A stretch of DNA of 64,000 nucleotides from DASRDR01 sp963812945 [NCBI: uncultured Candidatus Rokubacteria bacterium] (GTDB lineage Bacteria > Methylomirabilota > Methylomirabilia > Rokubacteriales): assembly GCA_963812945.1 (NCBI GenBank), contig CAWEXD010000008.1, positions 186,001-250,000 of the forward strand, in the 5' to 3' direction. This document shows, piece after piece, positions 19,798 through 31,636 of this stretch. The notes under the pieces are model-generated. The model worked only from the letters and a program-made list of their open reading frames with translations. It was not told the origin of the DNA and did no database searches. Every line of letters begins with the position of its first letter. Positions within the stretch are counted from its first letter, which is position 1. A program made the translations under genes and the position numbers.

Positions 19798-20415
19798 ATG
19801 GCCAGACTCACACCGGTTGTGGGGGCGTTGCTCTCCCGGGTAGGCGTCTTGCTCGCCATCGGAGTGGTGGCGGGCGTGCCCGGCAGTGCCAGCGCCGAGT
19901 ACGGTAATCCAACCGTCCTGCAGGTCTGCGTCAACAAGGACCGGCACGGCCATCTGTACGGGTATCCCCGCATCGTCCGCCACAACGAGAAGTGTGGCCG
20001 GAGCGAGGTCCGGCTCGCGTGGAGCTACGCCGGTCTCCCGGGTCCCGCGGGGCCACCCGGTCCCCCCGGCTCACAAGGTCCTGCCGGGCCCCCAGGGCCA
20101 GAGGGCCCGCCGGGCGAGGGCGGCGGCCAAGAGAACGGGGCGATTCGCGGCAAGGTTCTCTCTTGCCTAGTTCCAGGGCCCGATCCGGGCACGTACGGGC
20201 CGGTTGCGGGCTCGTTCGTATCCATTGCCGGCCAATCGTTCGCCGCGTTCACAAACGACACCGGTGAGTTCGAGCTGAGCCACGTGCCCCCCGGAGTCTA
20301 CGAGCTGGTCCTTGGGATTCTGCAGATCACGGAGGTGGCGATCGTGTCTGGCGTCGTAGTCGAGGCGGGCGAGACGACAACCGTTGACCCGACGACCGTC
20401 TGTTTCTCGGAGTGA
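19798..20415 (+). CDS. Secreted protein with collagen-like repeat
   Basis: A 205-aa exported protein. The signal peptide has a hydrophobic core and ends GSASA before EYGNPTVLQV. After an N-terminal domain with two Cys comes a run of ten Gly-X-Y triplets (residues 79-108, e.g. GPAGPPGPPG), then a carboxypeptidase-regulatory-like beta domain (NDTGEFELSHVPPGVYELVLG). Gly-X-Y runs in bacteria form collagen-like trimers on the cell surface or on exosporium-like structures. ATG 19798 has GGAGGAGG upstream. The proline content fits a triple helix. Function unknown; adhesion or envelope display is likely. Confidence 0.82.
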   Translation: MARLTPVVGALLSRVGVLLAIGVVAGVPGSASAEYGNPTVLQVCVNKDRHGHLYGYPRIVRHNEKCGRSEVRLAWSYAGLPGPAGPPGPPGSQGPAGPPGPEGPPGEGGGQENGAIRGKVLSCLVPGPDPGTYGPVAGSFVSIAGQSFAAFTNDTGEFELSHVPPGVYELVLGILQITEVAIVSGVVVEAGETTTVDPTTVCFSE

Positions 20416-20428
20416 CTTCAGTTCCCGG

Positions 20429-20457
20429 CGCCTGCCCGGTCCTGATCCGGGCGGGCG
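20429..20457. terminator. Hairpin after the collagen-like gene
   Basis: An 11-bp stem with one G-T pair and loop TCCTGAT, starting 13 nt after the stop codon. No T-run follows. It also lies in the spacer beyond the end of the convergent DUF169-UroD gene. Confidence 0.6.
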
Positions 20458-20550
20458 GCCGGTCAGTCAGCCGTCCTTGTGAGACGCACCGCGCCGGCGC
20501 CGGCCACGGTCGAGCCCGGCGCGCGTCGTCTCACCGCACCGTCCACCGCG

Positions 20551-22398
20551 TCAGCCCATGACCCGCTCGTAGCGTCCGTAGTCCCGCGCGGCGTCCATGA
20601 ACCACTGGACGACCTCCGGGCTGGATCGCGGCGGGATCTCGCAGGACGTCGACAGGATGAAGCCGGAGTGGCGGGCGGCCGCGTCGACACAGCGCCGCAC
20701 CTCCGCCTCGATCTCGGCCCGGGAGGCCCGCTCGAAGAGCGTGGCGTCGACGTTGCCGATCGCCACCGCGCGCCCGTGGGACACGTCCATGAACCGGGTG
20801 AGCTGGTCCACGTGGAGCGTGGGGTCGGACTGCTGGTCGAGGTCGAAGGAGACCGTCGTGAACCCGCACCCGATCAGGTCCTCGTAGATCGGGTAGGTCG
20901 TCCCGCAGATGTGGGTCGTGAGGCCGACCTTCTTCGCCTTGAAGTGGTCCACCAGCTCCTTGTGGTAGGGAGCGATGAACTCCCGGTAGTTGTCCGGTGA
21001 GATCAGGCTGATCGAGGCGGTGGGCTCGGAGAACGACAGCCCGATCTTCGTCTTGACGATCGCGTCGCCCCAGCGCTTGCAGTACTCCGTCGCGAACCGC
21101 ATGAGGTCGTGGATGAACTGCGGGTCCTCGAAGGTGTCGAGCAGCATGACCTCGGGGTTCCGCATGAGCATCGCGATCGTCCACGGCCCGACCGCGACGG
21201 CGCCGACCGCCGTCGGGAACTTGGCCGCGACCAGGCCCTCGCAGAGCTCGAGGAACCCCGGGAGCCGCCCGTCCTTCAGGGGGTCGGGGATCGCGAGGCG
21301 CGCGAGCGCGGCCTTGTCCTCCTGGAGGACGTGGGTCTCGATGGACGGGACGACGTAGTCGGAGTACTTCACCCCACAGCCGGTGGCCTCGGCCTCCTTG
21401 GCCAGATCGTTGTAGGCAAGCACCACGTCGGGCTGGTAGCGGTCGTAGTAGTTCAGCATGGCCTTGATGGCCTTGGACGGCGTCGTGCAGTACTCCTCGA
21501 TGGAGAGGCCGTCGAGGGTGCCGGCGAAGGAGGCGACGATCGGGTAGACCGGCACGCGGTCGGTGAAGCTCCGCTTGTAGGCGGCCACCACGTGGTCACG
21601 GCCGGAGTAGCTGGCCTTGCCGCGCTCCGCGTCCCACAGGCGATTGACCTCCATGTACTTCGGAGGGAGCTTCGCCTCGTACTCCATGAACTGCGTGATG
21701 GGGTAGCGGATGCCGCCGCGATGCGTCCCCTCGAGGCCCTCGATGATCTCCGGCATCCGCGCCCACGGGATCGCGAAGGCCATCTCGTGGTCCTGGGTCT
21801 GGCCGAAGATGCGGTCCCCGGAGCAGGGCAGGATGACCTGGGGCTGCCCGGTCTGCATCGTGGTCACGATGATGTCGGCGCAGACGATGCGCCCCTGAAA
21901 GGACGACGCCAGGCGGCCGCCGGTCTTCCAGAGCGCCGCCTGGGTGAGCCGCATCACCTGGGCCGGGTTCGCGTACACCACCACGACGTCCGGCTCGAAC
22001 GTCGCGCGCTCGAGCGGGGCGACCAGGAGGGCCTGGTACTCGCCGGGGGCGAACTTGTCGACCGCCGCCTCTGAGCGGGCGCCCGCCTCCTTGGTCTCGG
22101 TGTACATGCCCTCGCAGAGCGTGCCCGAGTTGTAGAGGTGGGTCGGCCGGTCGAAGCCGAGGGCGGTGATGCCGAGCGAGCAGATGCTGTCGTCGCGCGT
22201 CAGCGCGATCGTCCAGCCGTACCGGCGGGACATGTCGATGACCTGGCAGTTCATCGAGAGCTTGCCGAAGTCCCGCGCTGGTCGTCGGGCCCGCTCCGGA
22301 ATGGGCTCGCCAGGTCGCAGCATGCGGATCGCCACCGGGAAGGTCTGCGGCCGGACGTAGGTCTGGAGCGCCTGCTCCGCGGTTTTCACGTCCACCAT
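20551..22398 (-). CDS. DUF169-uroporphyrinogen-decarboxylase-like (MtaA-type) fusion
   Basis: A 615-aa two-domain protein. Residues 1 to about 235 are a DUF169 domain: a run of spaced Cys (MNCQVID, DSICSLG, RIVCADI, ILPCSGDR) and the family motif FEPDVVVVYANP. From about residue 250 to the end is a UroD-fold domain. It carries His496-x-Cys498 (THICGTT) and Cys586 (LSTSCEIPP), the zinc-ligand pattern of MtaA/CmuA cobamide methyltransferases rather than of true heme decarboxylases. ATG 22398 has GGAG 6-7 nt before it. It likely moves a methyl group to or from a corrinoid or thiol; the fused DUF169 half is of unknown role. Confidence 0.85.
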   Translation of the reverse strand: MVDVKTAEQALQTYVRPQTFPVAIRMLRPGEPIPERARRPARDFGKLSMNCQVIDMSRRYGWTIALTRDDSICSLGITALGFDRPTHLYNSGTLCEGMYTETKEAGARSEAAVDKFAPGEYQALLVAPLERATFEPDVVVVYANPAQVMRLTQAALWKTGGRLASSFQGRIVCADIIVTTMQTGQPQVILPCSGDRIFGQTQDHEMAFAIPWARMPEIIEGLEGTHRGGIRYPITQFMEYEAKLPPKYMEVNRLWDAERGKASYSGRDHVVAAYKRSFTDRVPVYPIVASFAGTLDGLSIEEYCTTPSKAIKAMLNYYDRYQPDVVLAYNDLAKEAEATGCGVKYSDYVVPSIETHVLQEDKAALARLAIPDPLKDGRLPGFLELCEGLVAAKFPTAVGAVAVGPWTIAMLMRNPEVMLLDTFEDPQFIHDLMRFATEYCKRWGDAIVKTKIGLSFSEPTASISLISPDNYREFIAPYHKELVDHFKAKKVGLTTHICGTTYPIYEDLIGCGFTTVSFDLDQQSDPTLHVDQLTRFMDVSHGRAVAIGNVDATLFERASRAEIEAEVRRCVDAAARHSGFILSTSCEIPPRSSPEVVQWFMDAARDYGRYERVMG

Positions 22399-22546
22399 GC
22401 GATCTCCTTCAGGTCCTTGGCACGTCCTTGACACGTCGTCGGTCCGAGCCTACCCGGCGGGTGTGACCGTGTCAACAAACGCACCCTCTTGCGCGCGCCG
22501 AGCCGCGCGGGGATGCTGGGCCGCGAGAGGTCGCGCGGCGGAGGCG

Positions 22547-23173
22547 ATGGCGAGGGCTACGGGCCGGTCGGTGGCGGGTCTAGTCGCGGGGTCGGCCAGC
22601 TGGCGGCTCGTCCTCGCGGTCGTCATGGTGTGGCTCGCGCTCGGCGCTCCCCCGGCCGAGGCCGAGGGCGACTCGCCGCCGCTCGGAGGACCCGCCCCGA
22701 ACTTCGCCCTGACCACGCAGCAGAACGACCGCCTCTGGCTCACCCACCTCCGTGGTCGGGCGGTCGTGCTCGCCTTCGGGTGCACCGCCTGCGGCGCCTG
22801 CCGCGACCTCCTGCCGCGGCTGGAGGAGCTCGCGCGAGGTCTGGGGGACGCCCCCGGGCGCCGCGTGTTCTTTCTCATGGTGACCGTGGACCCCGCCCGC
22901 GATACCCAGACGGCCCTCCGAGAGTTTGGCCGGACCCGCGGGCTCCGCGCGCCGGCCTGGCTCTTGCTGACCGAGGACCGGCCGGGGCAGACCGAGGCTG
23001 TCGCGCGCCGCTACGGCGTGACGGTTCGGCGGGCGGGCGAGGAGGTCGCCGCCGACTGCGCGGTGACCCTGATCGACGGGGACGGCCGGATCCGTGCCCG
23101 CCACGACGTCGGATCCCTGAGTGCGCTCGACCGCGAGCTGAGAGTCGTCCTCGGCCTCCCGGCGTCCCCCTGA
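22547..23173 (+). CDS. SCO1/thioredoxin-fold protein, membrane-anchored or exported
   Basis: About 208 aa with an N-terminal hydrophobic segment (LVLAVVMVWLALGAPPAEA) that serves as signal peptide or anchor. The rest is a thioredoxin-fold domain like SCO1/SenC and AhpC/TSA proteins: PAPNFALTTQQND, LRGRAVVLAFGCTAC, and MVTVDPARDT, which is typical of SCO proteins. The active motif is Cys79-x2-Cys82-x2-Cys85 instead of the SCO CxxxC. SCO proteins deliver copper to cytochrome oxidase; none of its genes are near. The start is uncertain (ATG 22547 has GGAGG but close spacing; GTG codons downstream are possible). Confidence 0.75.
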   Translation: MARATGRSVAGLVAGSASWRLVLAVVMVWLALGAPPAEAEGDSPPLGGPAPNFALTTQQNDRLWLTHLRGRAVVLAFGCTACGACRDLLPRLEELARGLGDAPGRRVFFLMVTVDPARDTQTALREFGRTRGLRAPAWLLLTEDRPGQTEAVARRYGVTVRRAGEEVAADCAVTLIDGDGRIRARHDVGSLSALDRELRVVLGLPASP

Positions 23174-23205
23174 CCCGGCGCCCCTCGCGCCGGCTCGGCC
23201 TCGAA

Positions 23206-23214
23206 TGCTACGAT
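23206..23214 (+). promoter_or_regulatory. Extended -10-like TGCTACGAT before a small gene
   Basis: TACGAT at 23209-23214 is preceded by TGC and lies 8 nt before ATG 23223. The spacing would give a leaderless or nearly leaderless mRNA, as proposed for several other genes in the window. Confidence 0.4.
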
Positions 23215-23222
23215 GAGGCGGC

Positions 23223-23546
23223 ATGTGGCGGCGGGTTCCGCTCCTCGTGCTCCTCTACGTGACGCTCGACTTCGCGAACCCCCTCATGCCCGGGGCCGTG
23301 CGCTTCGAGGCGGGGGCGGTCGAGTCCGTCCAGGCCGACCGGACCGGGCGAGCCGCGAGACCGGTGGCTGCTCTCGCGCGCCTCGTCGCGGTGGTCCCGA
23401 CGTGGAGCGTCCTTCCCGTGGAGGCCGCGCTCGGTCGACCGGCTCCGGTGTCGCCGCCGGCCGCCGCCCGCCTCGTGCGCCGCACCGTCTGCCGAGCGTC
23501 TCCTCGGCGCGGTACCCCGCCGCGGTCTGGATCCGAAGACCACTAG
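23223..23546 (+). CDS. Conserved-looking small membrane or exported protein
   Basis: A 107-aa protein beginning MWRRVPLLVLLYVTLDFAN, a short hydrophobic segment, followed by PLMPGAVRFEAGAVESVQA. The N-terminal part reads like a real conserved protein, while the C-terminal third is Arg/Pro-rich and could be read-through of a frame that should end sooner. It has a promoter-like hexamer just upstream and sits 49 nt after the SCO-like gene. No family is known to me. A cleavable signal or single anchor is possible; the topology is not clear. Confidence 0.55.
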   Translation: MWRRVPLLVLLYVTLDFANPLMPGAVRFEAGAVESVQADRTGRAARPVAALARLVAVVPTWSVLPVEAALGRPAPVSPPAAARLVRRTVCRASPRRGTPPRSGSEDH

Positions 23547-23677
23547 CTTCCCTCTCGGAGCGCCCCCAAGGTCGCGCCGCGGCACGACCGCGGTGCCGAT
23601 GTCGCTCATTTCGGGAAGGAGCGCTGATCCGTCGTAGATGGACGGGGGGCGCGGCCGCACCCGCCAGGGAGGGGACC

Positions 23678-24019
23678 ATGGGCAAGGTCGGGCGGTTCGT
23701 CACCGATCCGAAGGCCGGGGCATACTGCCAGATCGTCCTCGACAGCGGCGAGAAGATTCTAGTGAATCACGACAAGGGCGACCTCAAGGGCGGCCGGCTG
23801 ACGATCCACACCGTCAAGTGGCTGGGATTGGGCTCGAGCGAGATGCTGCTCGCCCTCGATCTCGACCTGCCCGCCGGGCAGCAGGCGCTCGCGCGACTCA
23901 CCGGGGGCGCTTCCGAGGGGAGTAGCCGAGCCACCCCGATCGGAGCGCTCGTGGAGTACGTGAAGGACTGCCGCTCGGTCGACGACGTGCGGTCCCGATG
24001 CGCTAGCCTCGGCGCCTAG
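23678..24019 (+). CDS. Small conserved hypothetical protein
   Basis: A 113-aa soluble protein, MGKVGRFVTDPKAGAYCQI..., with a beta-rich first half (IVLDSGEKILVNHDKG, RLTIHTVKWLGLGSSEMLL) and an Ala/Gly-rich middle before a helical tail. ATG 23678 has AGGGAGGGG about 8 nt upstream, the best ribosome site in this stretch, which supports this start over the longer open frame. I recognise no domain. It lies between a small membrane-protein gene and the convergent trehalose-phosphate synthase gene; nothing in the context reveals a role. Confidence 0.7.
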   Translation: MGKVGRFVTDPKAGAYCQIVLDSGEKILVNHDKGDLKGGRLTIHTVKWLGLGSSEMLLALDLDLPAGQQALARLTGGASEGSSRATPIGALVEYVKDCRSVDDVRSRCASLGA

Positions 24020-24091
24020 GTCTGCCCGCCCGATTGGGCGGCGCATGGAGCGTGGGCGCTGTCCGGGATGCCGCCGAGAGGCGGCGCCTGG

Positions 24092-26335
24092 TCAGACCTC
24101 GCTGCCGGCGTTGGCACGGTCGCCCTGGGCGGGCAGTCGGGCCAACTCGCCCAGGAGGCGGCCGGCCCAGCGGTAGATGTTGTACTCCCGCACGGTTTGG
24201 CGCATGCGGCCCATGCGGCCACGCCGCTCGCCCGGCGGCATCTCGACCGCCTGCCGGATCGCTTCTGCCATCTCGTCGATGTCGTAGGGGTTGACGAGGA
24301 GCGCGTCCGCCAGCTCCCGCGCCGCCCCGGTGAACCGGCTCAGGATCAGCACGCCGTCGTCGTCGTCCCGCACCGACACGAACTCCTTGGCGACGAGGTT
24401 CATTCCGTCGTGGAGAGACGTCACCATGCAGAAGTCCGCCCACCGGTAGAAGGGCCAGACGTCACGATGGTCGTGGTGACCCTTGAGGAGGACGATCGGG
24501 CGCCAGCTGCCGGTTCCGAGCTCACCGTTGATCTGCCCCGCGAGCTGGTCGAGCTCCTCCTCGAGGGCCCGGTACCGCGTGATCCGGCTCCGGCTCGGCG
24601 CCGCGAGCTGGACGAACGTGAGCCGCCCGCGGTAGTCGGGGTGCTGGGTGAAGAAGCGCCGGATCGCCGCGAACCGCTCCGGGAGCCCCTTCGTGTAGTC
24701 GATGCGCTCCACGCCGACACCCAAGAACTCGACGTCGATGCCCAGTTCCTGAAGCAGAGCGACCCGGCTCGAGGCCGGAGGCTCGTCCACGAACCGCGGG
24801 GCCACGCTGATCGGGAACGGCTTCACCAGGGTGACGTGCTGGTTTCGCGCCACCGAGAAGTGGTCCCAGTCGATGCGGGCCTCGACGACCCGGTCCACCG
24901 TCTCCAGGAAGTTGTTGCAGTGGAACTGGGTGTGGAAGCCGACCAGATCGGCGCCGAGCATGCCGTCCAGGATCTCCGTTTGCCAGGGACAGATCCCGAA
25001 CGCCTCCGGATTCGGCCACGGGATGTGCCAGAAGATGGCGACGTGGGCGTCGGGGCGCTTCTCCTTGATGAAGCGGGGCAGCAGGGCGAAGTGGTAGTCC
25101 TGGATCAGGATCGCCGGGTTGTCGGTGTCGGCGATCACCTCGAGCACCGCATCCGCGAACTTCGCGTTGACGGCCGCGTACTGACGCCAGTCCTCGGGCC
25201 GGAAGATGGGCCGCGCATGGACGATGTGGCAGAGCGGCCACATCCCCTCGTTGGCGAACCCGTAATAGTAGCCGGATTCCTCCTCCTCGGAGAGCCAGAT
25301 GCGCTTCAGCGCGTACCGGGGCGCGTCCGGCGGGAGCTGGACCATTGCCCGCTCGTCGACCACCTCACGATCGGCATCCCCGCTGCCGTGCGCGATCCAG
25401 ACGCCGCCGCAGGCCCGCATCACGGGCTCCATCGCCGTGACGACACCGCTGGCCGGCGTCAGGGGCACGACGCGGCGGCCGCGCCACACGTGGCTCACCG
25501 GCTCGCGATTGGAGACGACCACCAGCGGCCGGTCGCCGAGCCGGACGCGGGCGAACTGGGCGAGGCGCTCCTCGGTCCACACCGCGTCCCCGCGGAGCCG
25601 GAGGCGCGCCTCCTCGGCGATAGCCGAGCGCGCCTTGGCCAGGCTCCGCCCCAGATCGCTCACCTCGGTGGCGAGCGGGCCGAAGAGCTGGGTGTCCGGC
25701 ATCGGTGGCGGCGGCCCGGGCTGGCCCGCGCGGAGCTGCCGCGCCCACGCCGCCAGCCGGTCCAGCGGGTGCGTCACGCTCCGGCGCACGACCAGGAAGG
25801 TGACGAGACTGAGCAGGGCGACCAGCACGGCGAAGCGGAGCGCGTGCATCCGCGCGAGGTCCCCCAGCTCGCGGTCGATGTGGGTGGCGTCCTGGAGGAT
25901 GACCAGGACGCCGCGAGCCCGCTGGTCCGTGACGAGCGGGACGGCGTAGTAGTAGGTCTCGCGCCCCCCGAGCGACTGGAGGCCCTGCTTGGGCGCCACG
26001 TCCGCGAGAGCCAGCGGAACGGCGGGCAGAGGAGCCTCCAGGCTCTCGGCCCACTGGGAGGTGGCGGCCACGAGAGATCCGGAGCGATCGAACACGGCCA
26101 CTCCGCGGCCGGCGGCCCCGAAGCGCTGGACGAGGCGATCGATCTGTGCGCGCGAGCCCCGGTCGATCAGAGGCTCGACGGCCTCCTTGAGCCCCTCGCC
26201 GAGGAGCCAGGAGCGCCGCTCGAGCTCCGTCGTCAAGCGTGTGCGCTCCCGCGCGACCGAGGCATAGGCGAACGCCCCGAGGACGACGATGATCGGGAGC
26301 CAAATGGCTACCAACAGCCGCAGTGTGAACCGCAT
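24092..26335 (-). CDS. Membrane-anchored trehalose-6-phosphate synthase (HAMP-like/GT20 fusion)
   Basis: A 747-aa protein. Residues 1-30 and about 164-185 are membrane spans enclosing an extracytoplasmic sensor-like region ([17 protein letters not shown]). A HAMP-like linker ([15 protein letters not shown]) follows. From about residue 270 to the end is a complete GT20 domain: SNREPV at 275, [41 protein letters not shown] and [11 protein letters not shown]. These include the OtsA residues that bind UDP-glucose and glucose-6-phosphate, so activity is expected: trehalose-6-phosphate formation on the inner membrane face. No phosphatase domain or gene is seen here. ATG 26335 lacks a ribosome site but lies 8 nt after TATACT. 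Confidence 0.9.
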
Positions 26336-26343
26336 TCGAGGCA

Positions 26344-26349
26344 AGTATA
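26344..26349 (-). promoter_or_regulatory. -10 hexamer TATACT before the trehalose-phosphate synthase
   Basis: On the minus strand TATACT is followed by 8 nt and then the ATG at 26335. No Shine-Dalgarno sequence fits in the gap. This predicts a leaderless mRNA starting at or next to the ATG. Confidence 0.5.
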
Positions 26350-26453
26350 CCCGGAACGACGAACCGATAGGGCCGGGGCCGGATGCGATCGGAGGGGGCC
26401 GCGCCTGGCTAGCCACGGGTGCCCGCGTGCCGCCGGCCGGCGTGCGGGCGGGC

Positions 26454-26483
26454 TTGGTCGCCACAGGGGGCCGGTCCTATAAT
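26454..26483 (+). promoter_or_regulatory. Sigma-70-type promoter of the kinase/regulator operon
   Basis: TTGGTC at 26454-26459 and a perfect TATAAT at 26478-26483, with an 18-bp spacer. RNA would start near 26490, about 35 nt before the small membrane-protein gene and upstream of the kinase and response regulator genes. Confidence 0.6.
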
Positions 26484-26524
26484 CCCCCCACCTTGCGATC
26501 TCGCCGGTGGGCAGGGAACGCTCA

Positions 26525-26719
26525 ATGAAGAGCAAGGACCTCCTGGTCGCGCTGTTCGCGCTCGCGGTCGTGCTCCTGTCCTGGCCCTTCCTGACAGTGG
26601 TCAACGGGCCCGCGACCGTCCTCGGGATCCCCCTGCTCGTGCTCTACCTCTTCGCCGTGTGGGCCGGCATCATCGCGGTCCTCTTCTGGCTGACCGGCGG
26701 GCGGGACACGGGCTGGTGA
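26525..26719 (+). CDS. Small two-span membrane protein
   Basis: A 64-aa protein, MKSKDLLVALFALAVVLLSW and then PATVLGIPLLVLYLFAVWAGI, giving two predicted membrane spans and a short polar end. It is the first gene after a good promoter and precedes the symporter-fused kinase by 28 nt. Small membrane proteins next to SSS-type kinases are often seen and may modulate or assemble with them, but that is inference. It is not the same as the DUF4212 subunit at 31364. ATG 26525 was chosen over a frame start at 26507 because the hydrophobic region begins sooner and GGGAACG lies upstream. Confidence 0.75.
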   Translation: MKSKDLLVALFALAVVLLSWPFLTVVNGPATVLGIPLLVLYLFAVWAGIIAVLFWLTGGRDTGW

Positions 26720-26747
26720 AGGCAGGCCGGACAGGGGGGCGGCCTCG

Positions 26748-29744
26748 GTGAGCTGGCTGGACTACGGCCCTCTCCTGTCGATCGTCGTCGGCTACCTGCT
26801 GTTCCTCTTCGGGGTGGCCTACTGGGCCGAGCGGAGTCGCCGCCTCCGGCACCCCAGGCTCCAGATGCTGACCTACGTGCTGACCGCGTCGGTGTACTGC
26901 ACGGCGTGGACCTTCTACGGCAGCGTGGGGCTGGCGGCGAACCGGGGGCTCGAGTTTCTCACGATCTATCTCGGGCCGGCCTTGATCGCGCTTCTCTGGC
27001 CGTTGCTCCTGCGCCGTCTGGTGCGGGTCGCCAAGGAGCAGCGGATCACGTCCATCTCCGACTTCATCTCGAGCCGGTACGGCAAGTCCGCCCCCCTGGG
27101 CGCCCTCGTGGCCGGGCTGGTCGTCGTAGGCCTGATCCCGTACATCGCGCTGCAGCTCCAGGCCGTGTCTCAGTCGTTCAAGCTGATCCTGCACCAGGAG
27201 ACGATCCTGGAGCTCTTCGACCCGACGCTGCTGGTCGCCATCGTGCTCGGAGTCTTCGGGATCCTGTTCGGCGCGCGGAACCCCGACTTCACGCAGGCCC
27301 AGCGGGGGCTGCTGACGGCCGTCGCCGTCGAGTCGGTAGTGAAGCTTCTCGCGTTCCTGACGGCGGGGGCCTGGGTCACGTGGGCCCTGTTCGGCGGGAT
27401 CGGCGACATTTTCGCCCGGGCCGTCGCCGACCCCGAGATCCGCCGTCTCCTCACGCTCGGCGAGGCGCCGACGGCGTCGTTCACGCGCTGGACGGCGCTG
27501 CTGGTCATCTCGATGATGGCGGTGATGTTCCTGCCGCGGCAGTTCCACGTGCTGGTCGTCCAGAACCAAGACGAACGCCACGTCGCCGCGGCGTCCTGGA
27601 TGTTTCCCCTCTATCTCTTCCTGATCAACCTGTTCGTGCTGCCGATCGCCATCGCGGGACTCCTCCTCCTCCCGCGGGACCAGGCCGATCACTTCGTCCT
27701 GCTCTTGCCTCTTGCCGCCGAGAACCCGGCGCTGTCGATCCTCGTGTTCCTCGGCGGGTTCTCCGCCGCCACCGCCATGATCGTCGTCGACTCGCTCGCC
27801 CTGTCGAAGATGCTCACCAACGACATCGTGGTGCCGATCCTGCTCCGGAACCGGAGTCGCGACCTCTACCGGGCGAGCTTGCGCTCGATGCGGCTGTGCA
27901 TTCTCCTGGTCGTGTTCCTCGGCTACGGCTGGGCGGCGCTGGCGGGCGGGCGCTTTCTCCTGGTCGAGATGGGGCTCTTGTCGTTCGTGGCGGTCACGCA
28001 GTGCGCGCCAGCGATCCTGCTGGGCCTGGTGTGGCCACGCGCCAATCGGCGCGGCGCCTTCGCCGGCATCTCCGCCGGGTTCGGCCTCTGGTTCTACACT
28101 CTCATCATCCCCGTCCTGGTCAAGGAAGGGGTGCTCGGCCCGACGATCCTCGAGGCTGGTCCCTTCGGCCAGGCCTGGCTCCGTCCGACCCAGCTCTTCG
28201 GGCTGGCCGGGCTCGATTCCGTGAGCCACGGGCTCTTCTGGTCACTTCTCACGAACCTGACCGCGTACGCGCTGGTCTCGCTCGCCACCCGCCAGGATGC
28301 CGAGGAGCGGCTCCAGGCGGCGGCGTTCACCGGGCGCTTTCCGGGGGCTCCGACCATGCCGGTGGGGGCCATCCTCACGCCTCGTGACATCGATCGCCTC
28401 GTCCACCACTACGTGGGCGGCCCGGATGCGGCGATCATCACCGGCGAGATCCTCGGGACCAAGGCACCCGACGAATTGACGCCCCCCGAGCTCCTCGAGC
28501 TGCGGATCCGGCTCGAGAAGCGGCTGGCCGCCTCGCTCGGCGCGGCGGCGGCGCGCTACATCGTGGAGGACCGGTTCACGCTGTCGAAGGGAGAGGCCGA
28601 GCGACTCGTGGAGTCGTTCCAGGAGCTGCGGCACTCGCTCCGGACGACCGAGGAGGAGGCGCGACGCATCGAGCGCCTGTTGGCCAGCGTGGTGCGGAGC
28701 GTGGACGACTGCATCGTCACGACGGACATCGGCGGGCACCTGGTGACGGTGAACCCGGCGGGGGAGCGTCTCTTCGGGGCATCCCAGGCGGAGCTGGCCG
28801 GCGCGCCGTGGTGGGATCTCCTGGCCGCCGGACCGGGAGTGTCGGGGGGCCGGGCCAGCGGGGCGTTCCAGGGTGTCTACGCGTGGAAGGGAGACGTCCG
28901 GGCGCGAACGCGCGCGGGTCGGGAGTTCCCGGCCCACCTCGCCGTCACCCCCATCTTCGATCCCGGCGGCCAGGTGCTGGGGACGGTCGGCGTGCTGCGC
29001 GACCTGACCGAGCAACACGACCTGCAGCGGCGGCTCATCCACCAGGAGACCCTGGCGTCGCTCGGCCAGATGGCGGCCGGGGTGGCGCACGAGATTCGCA
29101 ACCCGCTCGGCGGGATCAAGATGGCCATGGCCGTGCTGGCGAAGCACAACGGCGACACGCTCTCCCGGGAGATGACGGAGAGCATGCGAACCGGGGTCGC
29201 GGAGATCGAGTCGATCGTGAGCCACCTGCTGGACTACACTCGCGAGACGCGCCTCGACCGGCAGCCGTTCGACGTCGAGCGGATCGTTCGGGAGGTCGTG
29301 CAGGCACTGGGCTCGGACGCGCGGGCGCGCGGCGTCACACTCTCCTGCTCGCAGACGTTTCCGAGCGGCGTCATCGGGCTGGTGGACGGCCCTCGGGTCC
29401 GTCAGGTTCTGACGAACCTCGTGCGCAACGCGATCGAGGCGGCCGACCGGCGTCCCGGCGGGCGCGTGGAGGTGACGTGCCACGGACGGGACAGTGCGAT
29501 CCTGTTCGACGTGGTCGACAACGGGATCGGGATGACGTCGGAGGAGCGCGAGCGGATGTTCCTCCCGTTCTTCACGACGAAGCCGACCGGTACCGGGCTC
29601 GGCCTGGCGATCGTGAAGAAGATCGTGGACCTGCACGGAGGCGAGATCGACGTAGCCTCGGAGCCGGGCCGGGGGACCCGAGTGGCGATCACCCTGCCCA
29701 TGGGAGCGCTGGATGAAGCGGCGAGTGCTGATCGTCGAGGATGA
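26748..29744 (+). CDS. Sodium/solute-symporter-fused sensor histidine kinase (CbrA-like)
   Basis: A 998-aa membrane kinase. Residues 1 to about 520 are an SSS-family transporter domain with about 13 spans (SISDFISSRYGKS; the FSAATAMIVVDSLALSKML segment). A cytoplasmic linker leads to a PAS domain (about 650-765; TTDIGGHLVTVNPAGERLFGAS), then HisKA with phospho-acceptor His781 (GVAHEIRNPLGG) and HATPase with NLVRNAIEAAD, DNGIGM and GTGLGLAI. This is the layout of CbrA and CrbS, which link solute transport to gene control. GTG 26748 is the start. Its last 32 nt overlap the response-regulator gene, which is surely its partner. Confidence 0.93.
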   Translation: MSWLDYGPLLSIVVGYLLFLFGVAYWAERSRRLRHPRLQMLTYVLTASVYCTAWTFYGSVGLAANRGLEFLTIYLGPALIALLWPLLLRRLVRVAKEQRITSISDFISSRYGKSAPLGALVAGLVVVGLIPYIALQLQAVSQSFKLILHQETILELFDPTLLVAIVLGVFGILFGARNPDFTQAQRGLLTAVAVESVVKLLAFLTAGAWVTWALFGGIGDIFARAVADPEIRRLLTLGEAPTASFTRWTALLVISMMAVMFLPRQFHVLVVQNQDERHVAAASWMFPLYLFLINLFVLPIAIAGLLLLPRDQADHFVLLLPLAAENPALSILVFLGGFSAATAMIVVDSLALSKMLTNDIVVPILLRNRSRDLYRASLRSMRLCILLVVFLGYGWAALAGGRFLLVEMGLLSFVAVTQCAPAILLGLVWPRANRRGAFAGISAGFGLWFYTLIIPVLVKEGVLGPTILEAGPFGQAWLRPTQLFGLAGLDSVSHGLFWSLLTNLTAYALVSLATRQDAEERLQAAAFTGRFPGAPTMPVGAILTPRDIDRLVHHYVGGPDAAIITGEILGTKAPDELTPPELLELRIRLEKRLAASLGAAAARYIVEDRFTLSKGEAERLVESFQELRHSLRTTEEEARRIERLLASVVRSVDDCIVTTDIGGHLVTVNPAGERLFGASQAELAGAPWWDLLAAGPGVSGGRASGAFQGVYAWKGDVRARTRAGREFPAHLAVTPIFDPGGQVLGTVGVLRDLTEQHDLQRRLIHQETLASLGQMAAGVAHEIRNPLGGIKMAMAVLAKHNGDTLSREMTESMRTGVAEIESIVSHLLDYTRETRLDRQPFDVERIVREVVQALGSDARARGVTLSCSQTFPSGVIGLVDGPRVRQVLTNLVRNAIEAADRRPGGRVEVTCHGRDSAILFDVVDNGIGMTSEERERMFLPFFTTKPTGTGLGLAIVKKIVDLHGGEIDVASEPGRGTRVAITLPMGALDEAASADRRG

Positions 29745-31116
29745 CGACGTCTTCCTGCGCCCGCTCCGGCGCGCCCTCGAGCTCGGGGGCTTCGATGTCC
29801 TGACCGCGGGCAGCGGTGAGGAGGCCCTCGATCTCCTCAAGCGGGAGGACGTCGATCTGGTGCTGACCGACCAGCGCCTCCCGGGGATGAATGGAGTCGA
29901 GGTGGTCCGGCGCCTGAAGGGGGACCACCCCGAGATCGGCGTCGTCGTCATGACGGCCTACGGCACCATCGGCGCCGCGGTGGAGGCCACGAGGCTCGGC
30001 GCGGAGGACTATCTGGTCAAGCCATTCGAGCCTGACGAGATCCTGCTGGTCCTTCGTCGGGCGCTCGAGTTCCGGGAGCTCCGCGACCAGCGCCGGCAGT
30101 CGCTGCGCCGCAACCAGGAGCGCTTCACGCTGACGAACCTGGTTGCGCGGAGCCCCAAGATGCTGGAGATCCTTGCGCTCCTGCGGGAGGTCGCGCAGAT
30201 CGATACCACCGTGCTGATCCACGGCGAGACAGGGGTGGGCAAGGAGCTCCTGGCCAGAACGCTCCACTTCGCGGGACCGCGGCGGGACAAGCCGTTCGTG
30301 GCCGTGAACTGTGCCGCGATCCCCGAGGAGCTGTTCGAGTCGGAGCTGTTCGGATACCGGCGGGGCGCGTTCACCGGGGCGACCGAGCCGCGACGCGGCC
30401 ACTTCCAGATGGCGAGCGGCGGCACGCTCCTCCTCGACGAGATCGGGGAGATGCCGCTCGGGCTCCAGTCGAAGCTCCTGCGGGCCATCGAGGAGAAAAG
30501 GATCACGCCGATCGGCGCCGAACGACCGGTCGACATCGACGTGCGGTTCATCGCCACGACGAACCAGGAGCTCCGCGAGGTCGCCGAGCGTGGGGGATTC
30601 CGCCGCGACCTCTTCTACCGCCTCGCGGTGTTCCCCATCCGCGTCCCACCGCTCCGCGAGCGGGTCGAGGACATTCCCGCGCTCGCCCCGCACTTCCTGG
30701 CCGAGAGTGCCCGGCGGTGCAAGAAGACCATCCGGGGCTTCGCTCCTTCCGCGCTCGAGGCGCTGCTCCGGTACCCCTGGCCCGGGAACGTGCGGGAGCT
30801 CGAGAACGTCGTGGAGCGCGCGGTCATCGTCACCCGCGAGGACGTGATCGCGGACGTGACCCCGTTCCTGGCCCCGGGCGGCGCGGACCGGGCGGTCGTC
30901 GATCTGACCCTGCCCTTCCGGGAAGCCAAGGCCCGCGTGGTCGAGGAGTTCGAACGAGCCTACGTGGCCGGCGTCCTCGGCCTCCACGGGGGAAAGCTCT
31001 CCGCCGCAGCCCGCCACGCGGACATGGACAACAAGAACCTCTGGGAGAAGATGGTGCGCTACGGCCTCAGGTCGCGCGCCGCCGCCGGCGAGCCGCCGCC
31101 CGACACCCCGGCCTGA
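29713..31116 (+). CDS. NtrC-type sigma-54 response regulator
   Basis: A 467-aa regulator with three domains. The receiver domain has the acidic pocket Asp10/11/12, the phosphorylated Asp53 and Lys103 in LVKPFEPDE. The AAA+ domain has Walker A GETGVGKE and the sigma-54-contact loop GAFTGA (218-223), which is intact, followed by GTLLLDEIGEM. A Fis-like helix-turn-helix ends the protein (LSAAARHADMDNKNLWEKM). It therefore activates sigma-54 promoters after phosphorylation by the overlapping symporter-kinase. The nearest such promoter lies 130 bp downstream, before the symporter operon, and is its obvious target. Confidence 0.95.
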   Translation: MKRRVLIVEDDDVFLRPLRRALELGGFDVLTAGSGEEALDLLKREDVDLVLTDQRLPGMNGVEVVRRLKGDHPEIGVVVMTAYGTIGAAVEATRLGAEDYLVKPFEPDEILLVLRRALEFRELRDQRRQSLRRNQERFTLTNLVARSPKMLEILALLREVAQIDTTVLIHGETGVGKELLARTLHFAGPRRDKPFVAVNCAAIPEELFESELFGYRRGAFTGATEPRRGHFQMASGGTLLLDEIGEMPLGLQSKLLRAIEEKRITPIGAERPVDIDVRFIATTNQELREVAERGGFRRDLFYRLAVFPIRVPPLRERVEDIPALAPHFLAESARRCKKTIRGFAPSALEALLRYPWPGNVRELENVVERAVIVTREDVIADVTPFLAPGGADRAVVDLTLPFREAKARVVEEFERAYVAGVLGLHGGKLSAAARHADMDNKNLWEKMVRYGLRSRAAAGEPPPDTPA

Positions 31117-31151
31117 CCGCCCCTCCCGGCCCGCGCGCCCCCGCGAACCAG

Positions 31152-31184
31152 GGTCCCGGTACCGCGATGTGTGGTACCGGGACC
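31152..31184. promoter_or_regulatory. Perfect 12-bp inverted repeat, enhancer or terminator
   Basis: GGTCCCGGTACC and its exact complement are separated by 9 nt. The centre lies about 107 bp before the expected sigma-54 transcription start, a usual distance for an NtrC-type enhancer. It is also 36 nt past the regulator stop codon and could instead be that transcript's terminator hairpin (no T-run). Confidence 0.5.
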
Positions 31185-31247
31185 ATGCTGCAGCCGGGTG
31201 GTGTGTCGGAATCATCAATCATTCCAGATAGTTTTGGCCTGACCCCG

Positions 31248-31264
31248 TTGGCATTCCGGATGCA
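31248..31264 (+). promoter_or_regulatory. Sigma-54 (-24/-12) promoter of the symporter operon
   Basis: TTGGCATTCCGGATGCA places GG at 31250-31251 and GC at 31262-31263, with exactly 10 bp between, the fixed spacing of sigma-54 promoters; the -24 box TTGGCA matches well and the -12 box ATGCA fairly (consensus TTGCA). RNA would start near 31275, about 90 nt before the DUF4212 gene. The neighbouring NtrC-type regulator fits as the activator. Confidence 0.65.
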
Positions 31265-31363
31265 CAGGCCAACGCCCGGGTCTGTGCGTCCGACGCGCGA
31301 CGATCGTGTCCCCAAGCCCCTGGGACCGTCCCGTGGCCAGGGTCGGTGTGGAGGAGGAGACGG

Positions 31364-31636
31364 ATGGCCGCTCCGAGGGAAATCGACCAGAAGACGCGTG
31401 ACGCGTACTGGGAGGAGACGTCCCGGTTCACCTGGCTGATCCTCGTCCTGTGGTTCGTTTCCTGGGTCGGCCCGCTCGTCTTGCACAGCTGGCTCAACTC
31501 GATCGTGATCTTCGGCTTCCCGATGTCGTTCTGGTTCGCCGGCCAGGGCTCGCTGGCGTTCTTCATCTTCCTGATCGTCTGGTACGCGGTCCACATGAAC
31601 AAGCTGGACCGCAAGTACGGACTGCAGGAGGACTAG
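31364..31636 (+). CDS. DUF4212 symporter small subunit
   Basis: A 90-aa protein with two membrane spans (FTWLILVLWFVSWVGPLVL and SLAFFIFLIVWYAVHMNKLD) and the charged ends usual for DUF4212. These proteins are always encoded just before an SSS-family carrier of the VC_2705 type and are thought to be its small subunit. ATG 31364 has GGAGGAGG upstream, the best ribosome site of the locus. The stop is only 4 nt before the symporter start, so translation is coupled. Expression should be driven by the sigma-54 promoter upstream. Confidence 0.92.
   Translation: MAAPREIDQKTRDAYWEETSRFTWLILVLWFVSWVGPLVLHSWLNSIVIFGFPMSFWFAGQGSLAFFIFLIVWYAVHMNKLDRKYGLQED

Follow-up and report, generated by a model that had tools for sequence, protein, structure and literature searches.

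A trehalose-6-phosphate synthase domain joined to a membrane Cache–HAMP-like module recurs across bacterial phyla

Introduction

Trehalose-6-phosphate (T6P) synthases such as E. coli OtsA, mycobacterial OtsA and Tps1 have the GT20 fold and a set of active-site positions in common, and E. coli OtsA, with 474 aa, is a soluble enzyme. GT20 is also found fused to another domain in the bifunctional synthase/phosphatases (TPSP), which carry a C-terminal OtsB domain. On the sensory side, WalK-type kinases and HAMP receptors are built in the order membrane span, extracellular PDC/Cache domain, membrane span and HAMP, with a kinase, cyclase or chemoreceptor as output. To our knowledge, HAMP-linked sensors are known for signalling outputs (kinases, cyclases, chemoreceptors and GGDEF/EAL domains) and not for enzymes of sugar metabolism.

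In Thermoproteus tenax, the TPSP-GT-MSC operon links a T6P synthase, fused there to its phosphatase, with a GT4-family protein and a mechanosensitive channel; the GT4-family protein is reported to activate the synthase/phosphatase, and a stress model involving the channel was proposed. The operon was stated to be unique to the Thermoproteales, and the part of that report we draw on describes no sensor (PMC3634074).

Here we analyse a gene with the GT20 fold and active-site positions of OtsA in which, unlike in an ordinary OtsA, the GT20 domain comes after a stretch of some 270 residues that carries a membrane sensor, a departure that a sequence-only reading of this DNA had already noticed. The protein has a length similar to that of TPSP but no OtsB, and it follows the domain order of WalK-type kinases and HAMP receptors, but its output is a metabolic glycosyltransferase and its HAMP part is weak in sequence. 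The parts are known; the combination is new as far as the open PMC literature shows, since a search confined to open-access PMC articles found no description of a sensor-GT20 fusion.

Results

The fusion gene occupies 24092..26335 on the (-) strand of the window, by which we mean the whole 64-kb stretch of DNA analysed. It begins with an ATG, opens with the motif MRFTLRL and encodes 747 aa plus a stop. The sequence-only reading had given exactly these coordinates and this order of parts, and profiles, fold comparison and alignment all confirm a sensor, a HAMP-like linker and a complete GT20 domain in one frame. In the ORF list, a longer frame extends to a GTG at 26464; proteins of the relatives, whose starts a script set at the codon closest to where the match begins, open with a similar N-terminal motif at the equivalent place, which supports the ATG without proving it.

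Exactly two hydrophobic spans fall within the first 262 aa in 73 of 77 aligned proteins, an alignment that omits loci L018, L073, L080 and L081. In the window protein, hydropathy places them at residues 7-25 (TM1; 26261..26317, (-)) and 160-178 (TM2; 25802..25858, (-)), within helices 2-59 and 151-202 of the structural model. Profile and Foldseek matches define a single-Cache/PDC-like sensor domain between them, at about residues 28-158 (25862..26254, (-)), which is expected to lie outside the membrane. It is followed, after TM2, by a HAMP-like linker at about residues 183-239 (25619..25789, (-)), recognized from a weak Pfam HAMP match, profile matches, helices and conservation, and by a conserved connecting helix and linker at about residues 240-270 (25526..25618, (-)).

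Pfam returned only weak HAMP and GAF-like matches for the window N-terminus, and the HAMP matches (13.3 and 14.8 bits) stayed below the cut-off of 25. A profile was built from 75 N-termini, from which L056 and L069 were also omitted and whose other members are 27-49% identical to the window sequence. Residues 40-161 of this profile matched the WalK extracellular domain, with a best E of 3.7e-5, and the part covering TM2 and the HAMP-like linker matched residues 196-265 of methyl-accepting chemotaxis protein I modestly (E 0.005) and the AF1503 HAMP weakly (E 0.06). Single members gave matches at E<=0.1 to SMP_2 (30/75), sCache_3_2 (18/75) and Pfam HAMP (17/75). The AlphaFold model of the N-terminus (mean pLDDT 89) found the integrative WalK model 9a5d as its top Foldseek match (261 columns, E 2.2e-11). 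WalK crystal structures came next (E 3.5e-7), and sporulation kinase D, DctB and CitA were also among the matches; the WalK extracellular domain aligned with a TM-score of 0.73 on the target.

A PDC fold between two membrane helices is thus seen by both structure and profile, and TM2 leads into two helices with a HAMP-like profile, given the modest profile matches, the WalK fold and model helices 151-202 and 215-252, which cover this region. Together, the matches to WalK and to HAMP receptors identify the N-terminus as a TM-Cache-TM-HAMP-like module. The two spans around a sensor-like loop in the sequence-only reading accordingly turn out to enclose a single-Cache (PDC), WalK-like domain. That reading had also suggested a domain search of the first 270 residues, which came out in part: profile and fold recover the Cache domain and back the HAMP-like linker, and HAMP itself stays under the Pfam cut-off in the window protein. 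P190 and E224 of the linker are each kept in 74 of 75 sequences; W197 and R202 (70/75 each) and W253 (71/71) are conserved as well, in an N-terminal alignment with zero invariant columns.

The remainder of the protein is a GT20 T6P synthase domain (residues 272-735; 24131..25522, (-)), supported by Pfam, by PDB sequence and fold matches and by its active-site positions. The Pfam GT20 model (PF00982) matched residues 271-732 (residues 314-775 of the ORF) with E 5e-115 and 385.4 bits against a cut-off of 32.5, spanning profile positions 3-472 of 473. By sequence the domain matched T6P synthases in the PDB, and the best Foldseek matches were the mycobacterial, Candida and E. coli enzymes. Identity to E. 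coli OtsA is 146 of 456 aligned residues. At 17 of 18 donor and acceptor positions, on what we take to be the E. coli OtsA active-site list (one number, Trp40, is off and falls on Gly in E. coli), the residue is identical, and 16 of the 18 columns are invariant across 80 sensor rows, which upholds the earlier statement that the key catalytic motifs are kept. In the active-site part of the full-length model, residues 363-365 and 367-373 are of low confidence (pLDDT <50).

Among the curated NCBIfam models, the combined OtsA/OtsB model scored highest (472.4 bits), ahead of the OtsA equivalog TIGR02400 (419.8 bits; cut-off 564.85) and the GgpS model TIGR02398 (286 bits; cut-off 569), with no cut-off reached. 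GgpS was rejected as the best model, the OtsA-type models scoring far higher. An assignment as a TPSP/OtsB fusion was also rejected: only 13 residues follow the GT20 match, and there is no match to a C-terminal OtsB domain.

A contig scan with the fusion protein yielded at least 544 relatives, from which the best 80 were taken in a ranking that favours full-length matches. In 74 of these 80 loci, drawn from at least six phyla, the match starts at residue 1-6, and in every one of the 80 it extends to residue 733 or further. The records bear the titles Rokubacteria, Methylomirabilota, Acidobacteria, Nitrospirae, Elusimicrobia, Omnitrophota and others, so the search for the same fusion elsewhere that the sequence-only reading had called for gave a positive answer. 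GT20-only searches, each taking 30 loci per phylum, best first and one per genome, with classes set by profile, found a sensor match in 14/30 loci from Acidobacteria (the phylum of L024), 19/30 from Nitrospirae (L025) and 29/30 from Omnitrophota (L071), two of the last over the HAMP part only; a Pfam-family query of Rokubacteria (L003) gave 22/30. The non-sensor loci were TPSP, plain, exchanger-fused, cut or unclassified, and further Omnitrophota matches, left unclassified, mostly had open frames near 500 aa. Open-frame length was dropped as a proxy for the sensor in favour of profile classification because TPSP proteins have similar lengths. The fusion is a standing form of a broad branch and no oddity private to the window genome. 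In the Nitrospirae search, loci L158-L171 are sensor-GT20 proteins with strongly diverged sensors (60-72 bits) that fall within the sensor branch and perhaps respond to another signal.

In a tree of 121 GT20 domains, 80 sensor rows and an Aminobacter protein with a single N-terminal span formed one branch (SH-aLRT 97); the tree is a quick one, without bootstrap and with several long outgroup branches. It includes 28 of the scan's best 80 loci. Excluded are L083-L094, L101 and L133, together with 31 near-duplicate sensor loci, rows truncated at the 5' end that gave no profile match, and domain matches shorter than 380 residues. The frame preceding GT20 in L101 is 500 aa long and had no Pfam match at E 0.01. 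The GT20 domain of the Aminobacter relative is 53% identical over window ORF residues 296-777, and its single span indicates that the sensor can be lost; on the sequences compared, the branch fits one fusion and one loss. The window GT20 lies on a branch away from E. coli OtsA, with Rokubacteria as its nearest rows.

To place the fusion in its gene context, we counted neighbours within 3.5 kb, on both sides and both strands, at the 70 loci with at least 2.5 kb of downstream sequence. OtsB was near 45, DUF5752 near 44, a TreT-like gene near 45 and MscS near 6 of them, and 12 had none of the four. For representatives of the neighbours, Pfam supported the assignments TreT, OtsB and MscS with DUF5752, and NCBIfam that of TreS; the TreT-like representative lies above the Pfam TreT cut-off and below the NCBIfam TreT equivalog cut-off. 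DUF5752, which matched PDB 4cso (deposited as OrfY, a transcription factor, and presumably the Thermoproteus tenax protein) with E 2.6e-23, occurs either by itself or forming the C-terminus of an MscS-like channel, and its usual neighbour is the TreT-like gene (for example, L003:11150-11911 and L012:11072-12448). A reading of the MscS channel as a core partner in 44 loci proved wrong, as the cluster had been joined mainly by the DUF5752 domain, and was dropped on the separate profile counts. OtsB frames of 680-752 aa were likewise dropped as candidate OtsB fusions; in L003 they are just long frames in G+C-rich DNA.

In 12 of 12 genomes, hand-picked and several of them already known to carry OtsB, the fusion was the sole GT20 match and OtsB lay within 2.2 kb of it. 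Wider searches found genomes with several GT20 matches (three in G076 and G221, two in G244 and G308), so the fusion is not always the only synthase. Ten selected draft genomes, for which completeness is not given, were searched for OtsB; five (L010, L011, L014, L040 and L066) had no match and the other five did. Among eight selected genomes without OtsB at the locus, five drafts had no OtsB match anywhere. The Rokubacteria loci L010, L011 and L014 have none of OtsB, DUF5752, TreT or MscS as neighbours, as is also the case for the window copy.

Trehalose genes also surround relatives without a fused sensor. OtsB is nearby in 14 of 15 hand-picked unfused relatives (only in part in L220), and DUF5752 occurs with TreT in 6 of the 15 (in pieces in L228). 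Given these shared neighbours, the operon may predate the fusion.

A second theme among the relatives is osmotic. Seven of the 15 unfused relatives (L224, L225 and L230-L234) have an MscS-like gene on the same strand no further than 1 kb upstream, and 6 of 54 sensor loci have one within 2.5 kb (Fisher p 0.005). This p value is uncorrected for kinship, the 15 unfused genes were hand-picked, a single phylum search supplied five of the seven, and at L229 the sequence extends only about 1 kb to one side. Five genomes of the Acidobacteria search each hold a GT20 gene in one frame behind a Na+/H+ exchanger domain (L145/L235, L146/L236, L148/L237, L150/L238 and L239), with 10-11 hydrophobic spans and both Pfam domains over their cut-offs in 5/5. 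Four of these exchanger-GT20 genes and two plain genes form a branch that is separate from the sensor branch and from the plain genes closest to it; for the plain members of the exchanger branch, L144 and L147, inspection by eye of the ORF lists of these short loci showed no obvious exchanger gene. Four sensor-type genes (L018, L063, L072 and L081) are preceded, at a distance of 3-147 bases, by an Na+/H+ exchanger encoded as a gene of its own.

Discussion

We think it probable, if by no means assured, that the protein is a membrane-anchored T6P synthase with its own sensor, which adjusts trehalose synthesis post-translationally to an envelope, osmotic or ionic cue. The single-Cache domain, held between two membrane helices on what would be the outer side of the cytoplasmic membrane, would read that cue. 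Its state would pass through the HAMP-like linker and the following helix to the cytoplasmic GT20 domain and set its activity, whichever the direction of regulation, and GT20 would make T6P from NDP-glucose and glucose-6-phosphate. The most likely role of such an enzyme would be the fast post-translational tuning of trehalose synthesis. The sequence-only reading had suggested that an external signal, for example osmolarity, controls the enzyme; the support for this is circumstantial, and it comes from gene neighbours and from other fusions in the wider family (MscS, exchanger, OtsB and TreT-like), which point to osmotic or ionic control.

The main competing explanation, which we consider unlikely but worth keeping in view, is that the N-terminus serves only to hold a constitutively active T6P synthase at the membrane, beside other membrane or trehalose proteins, and that its Cache and HAMP-like parts are non-signalling remnants. 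The Aminobacter relative, which keeps GT20 with only one span, would fit this, as would the wider family, in which other members are joined to membrane proteins of quite another kind or have them as neighbours. However, sensor, TM2, HAMP-like linker and connector are recognizable across several phyla, and the conservation of P190, E224, W197, R202 and W253 counts against a bare anchor because an anchor would not need these residues. A more radical alternative would remove the N-terminus from the protein altogether: many long spurious frames arise in G+C-rich DNA, and an internal start near residue 255 would leave a soluble GT20 as the functional enzyme. The sequence-only reading had named such a start, or a lack of homologues with the N-terminal spans, as what would overturn it. 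We rejected the internal start and give it almost no credence: 76 other aligned proteins have a single unbroken frame of 735-779 aa, spans are present in many homologues, profile and fold matches extend through the N-terminus, and the differences between the window and L003 over residues 1-262 (108/79/123 at codon positions 1/2/3) show a coding pattern for the N-terminal frame.

The product is a separate question. GT20 might make something else, for example glucosylglycerol phosphate, or T6P might be the end product or a signal in genomes without OtsB, in keeping with a window domain that scores below the curated OtsA cut-off and with the absence of OtsB from the 64-kb window and from five of the ten selected draft genomes. 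We judge this improbable, as the OtsA-type models clearly outscore GgpS, the residues compared at the acceptor and donor sites are conserved and OtsB lies within 3.5 kb in nearly two-thirds of the relatives counted (45/70).

Returning to the reading of a sensor-controlled T6P synthase, a broader version of it can be put forward only tentatively, with the balance tilted somewhat against it. The fusion would belong to a widespread sensor-enzyme family in which an extracellular state acts through a HAMP-type switch on a biosynthetic glycosyltransferase, giving control of trehalose without transcription, and in which one osmotic membrane module can replace another: the Cache-HAMP sensor in this fusion, a cation/proton exchanger in the related branch and a separate mechanosensitive channel beside unfused relatives. 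Some bacterial loci in our set (for example, L225, L231, L232 and L234) show a linkage comparable to that of the T. tenax operon and so qualify the statement, in the part of the report cited, that it is found only in Thermoproteales (PMC3634074).

The recurrence of the fusion in several groups of mostly uncultured bacteria suggests a stress protection that possibly works without first switching on genes. If the sensor does govern the synthase, several little-studied phyla could adapt the level of a protective sugar rapidly, with no need for gene expression, and the path from osmotic sensing to solute synthesis would be testable in one purified protein. The exchanger-GT20 fusion would let this idea be approached independently from another side.

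Around the window copy itself, the 64-kb window contains no match to OtsB, DUF5752, a TreT-like protein or MscS, and an Rfam search of positions 20000-31500 gave no match. Divergent to the fusion gene, at 26748-31116 (+), lie a kinase and then an NtrC-type sigma-54 regulator; the N-terminus of the kinase resembles a sodium:solute symporter, at 22 bits just under the Pfam cut-off of 22.8, and is followed by PAS, HisKA and HATPase domains. At L009, a HAMP kinase and an NtrC-type regulator are encoded close downstream of the fusion gene. On the other side of the window gene, a frame at 20551-22434 (-) joins DUF169 to a uroporphyrinogen-decarboxylase-like domain.
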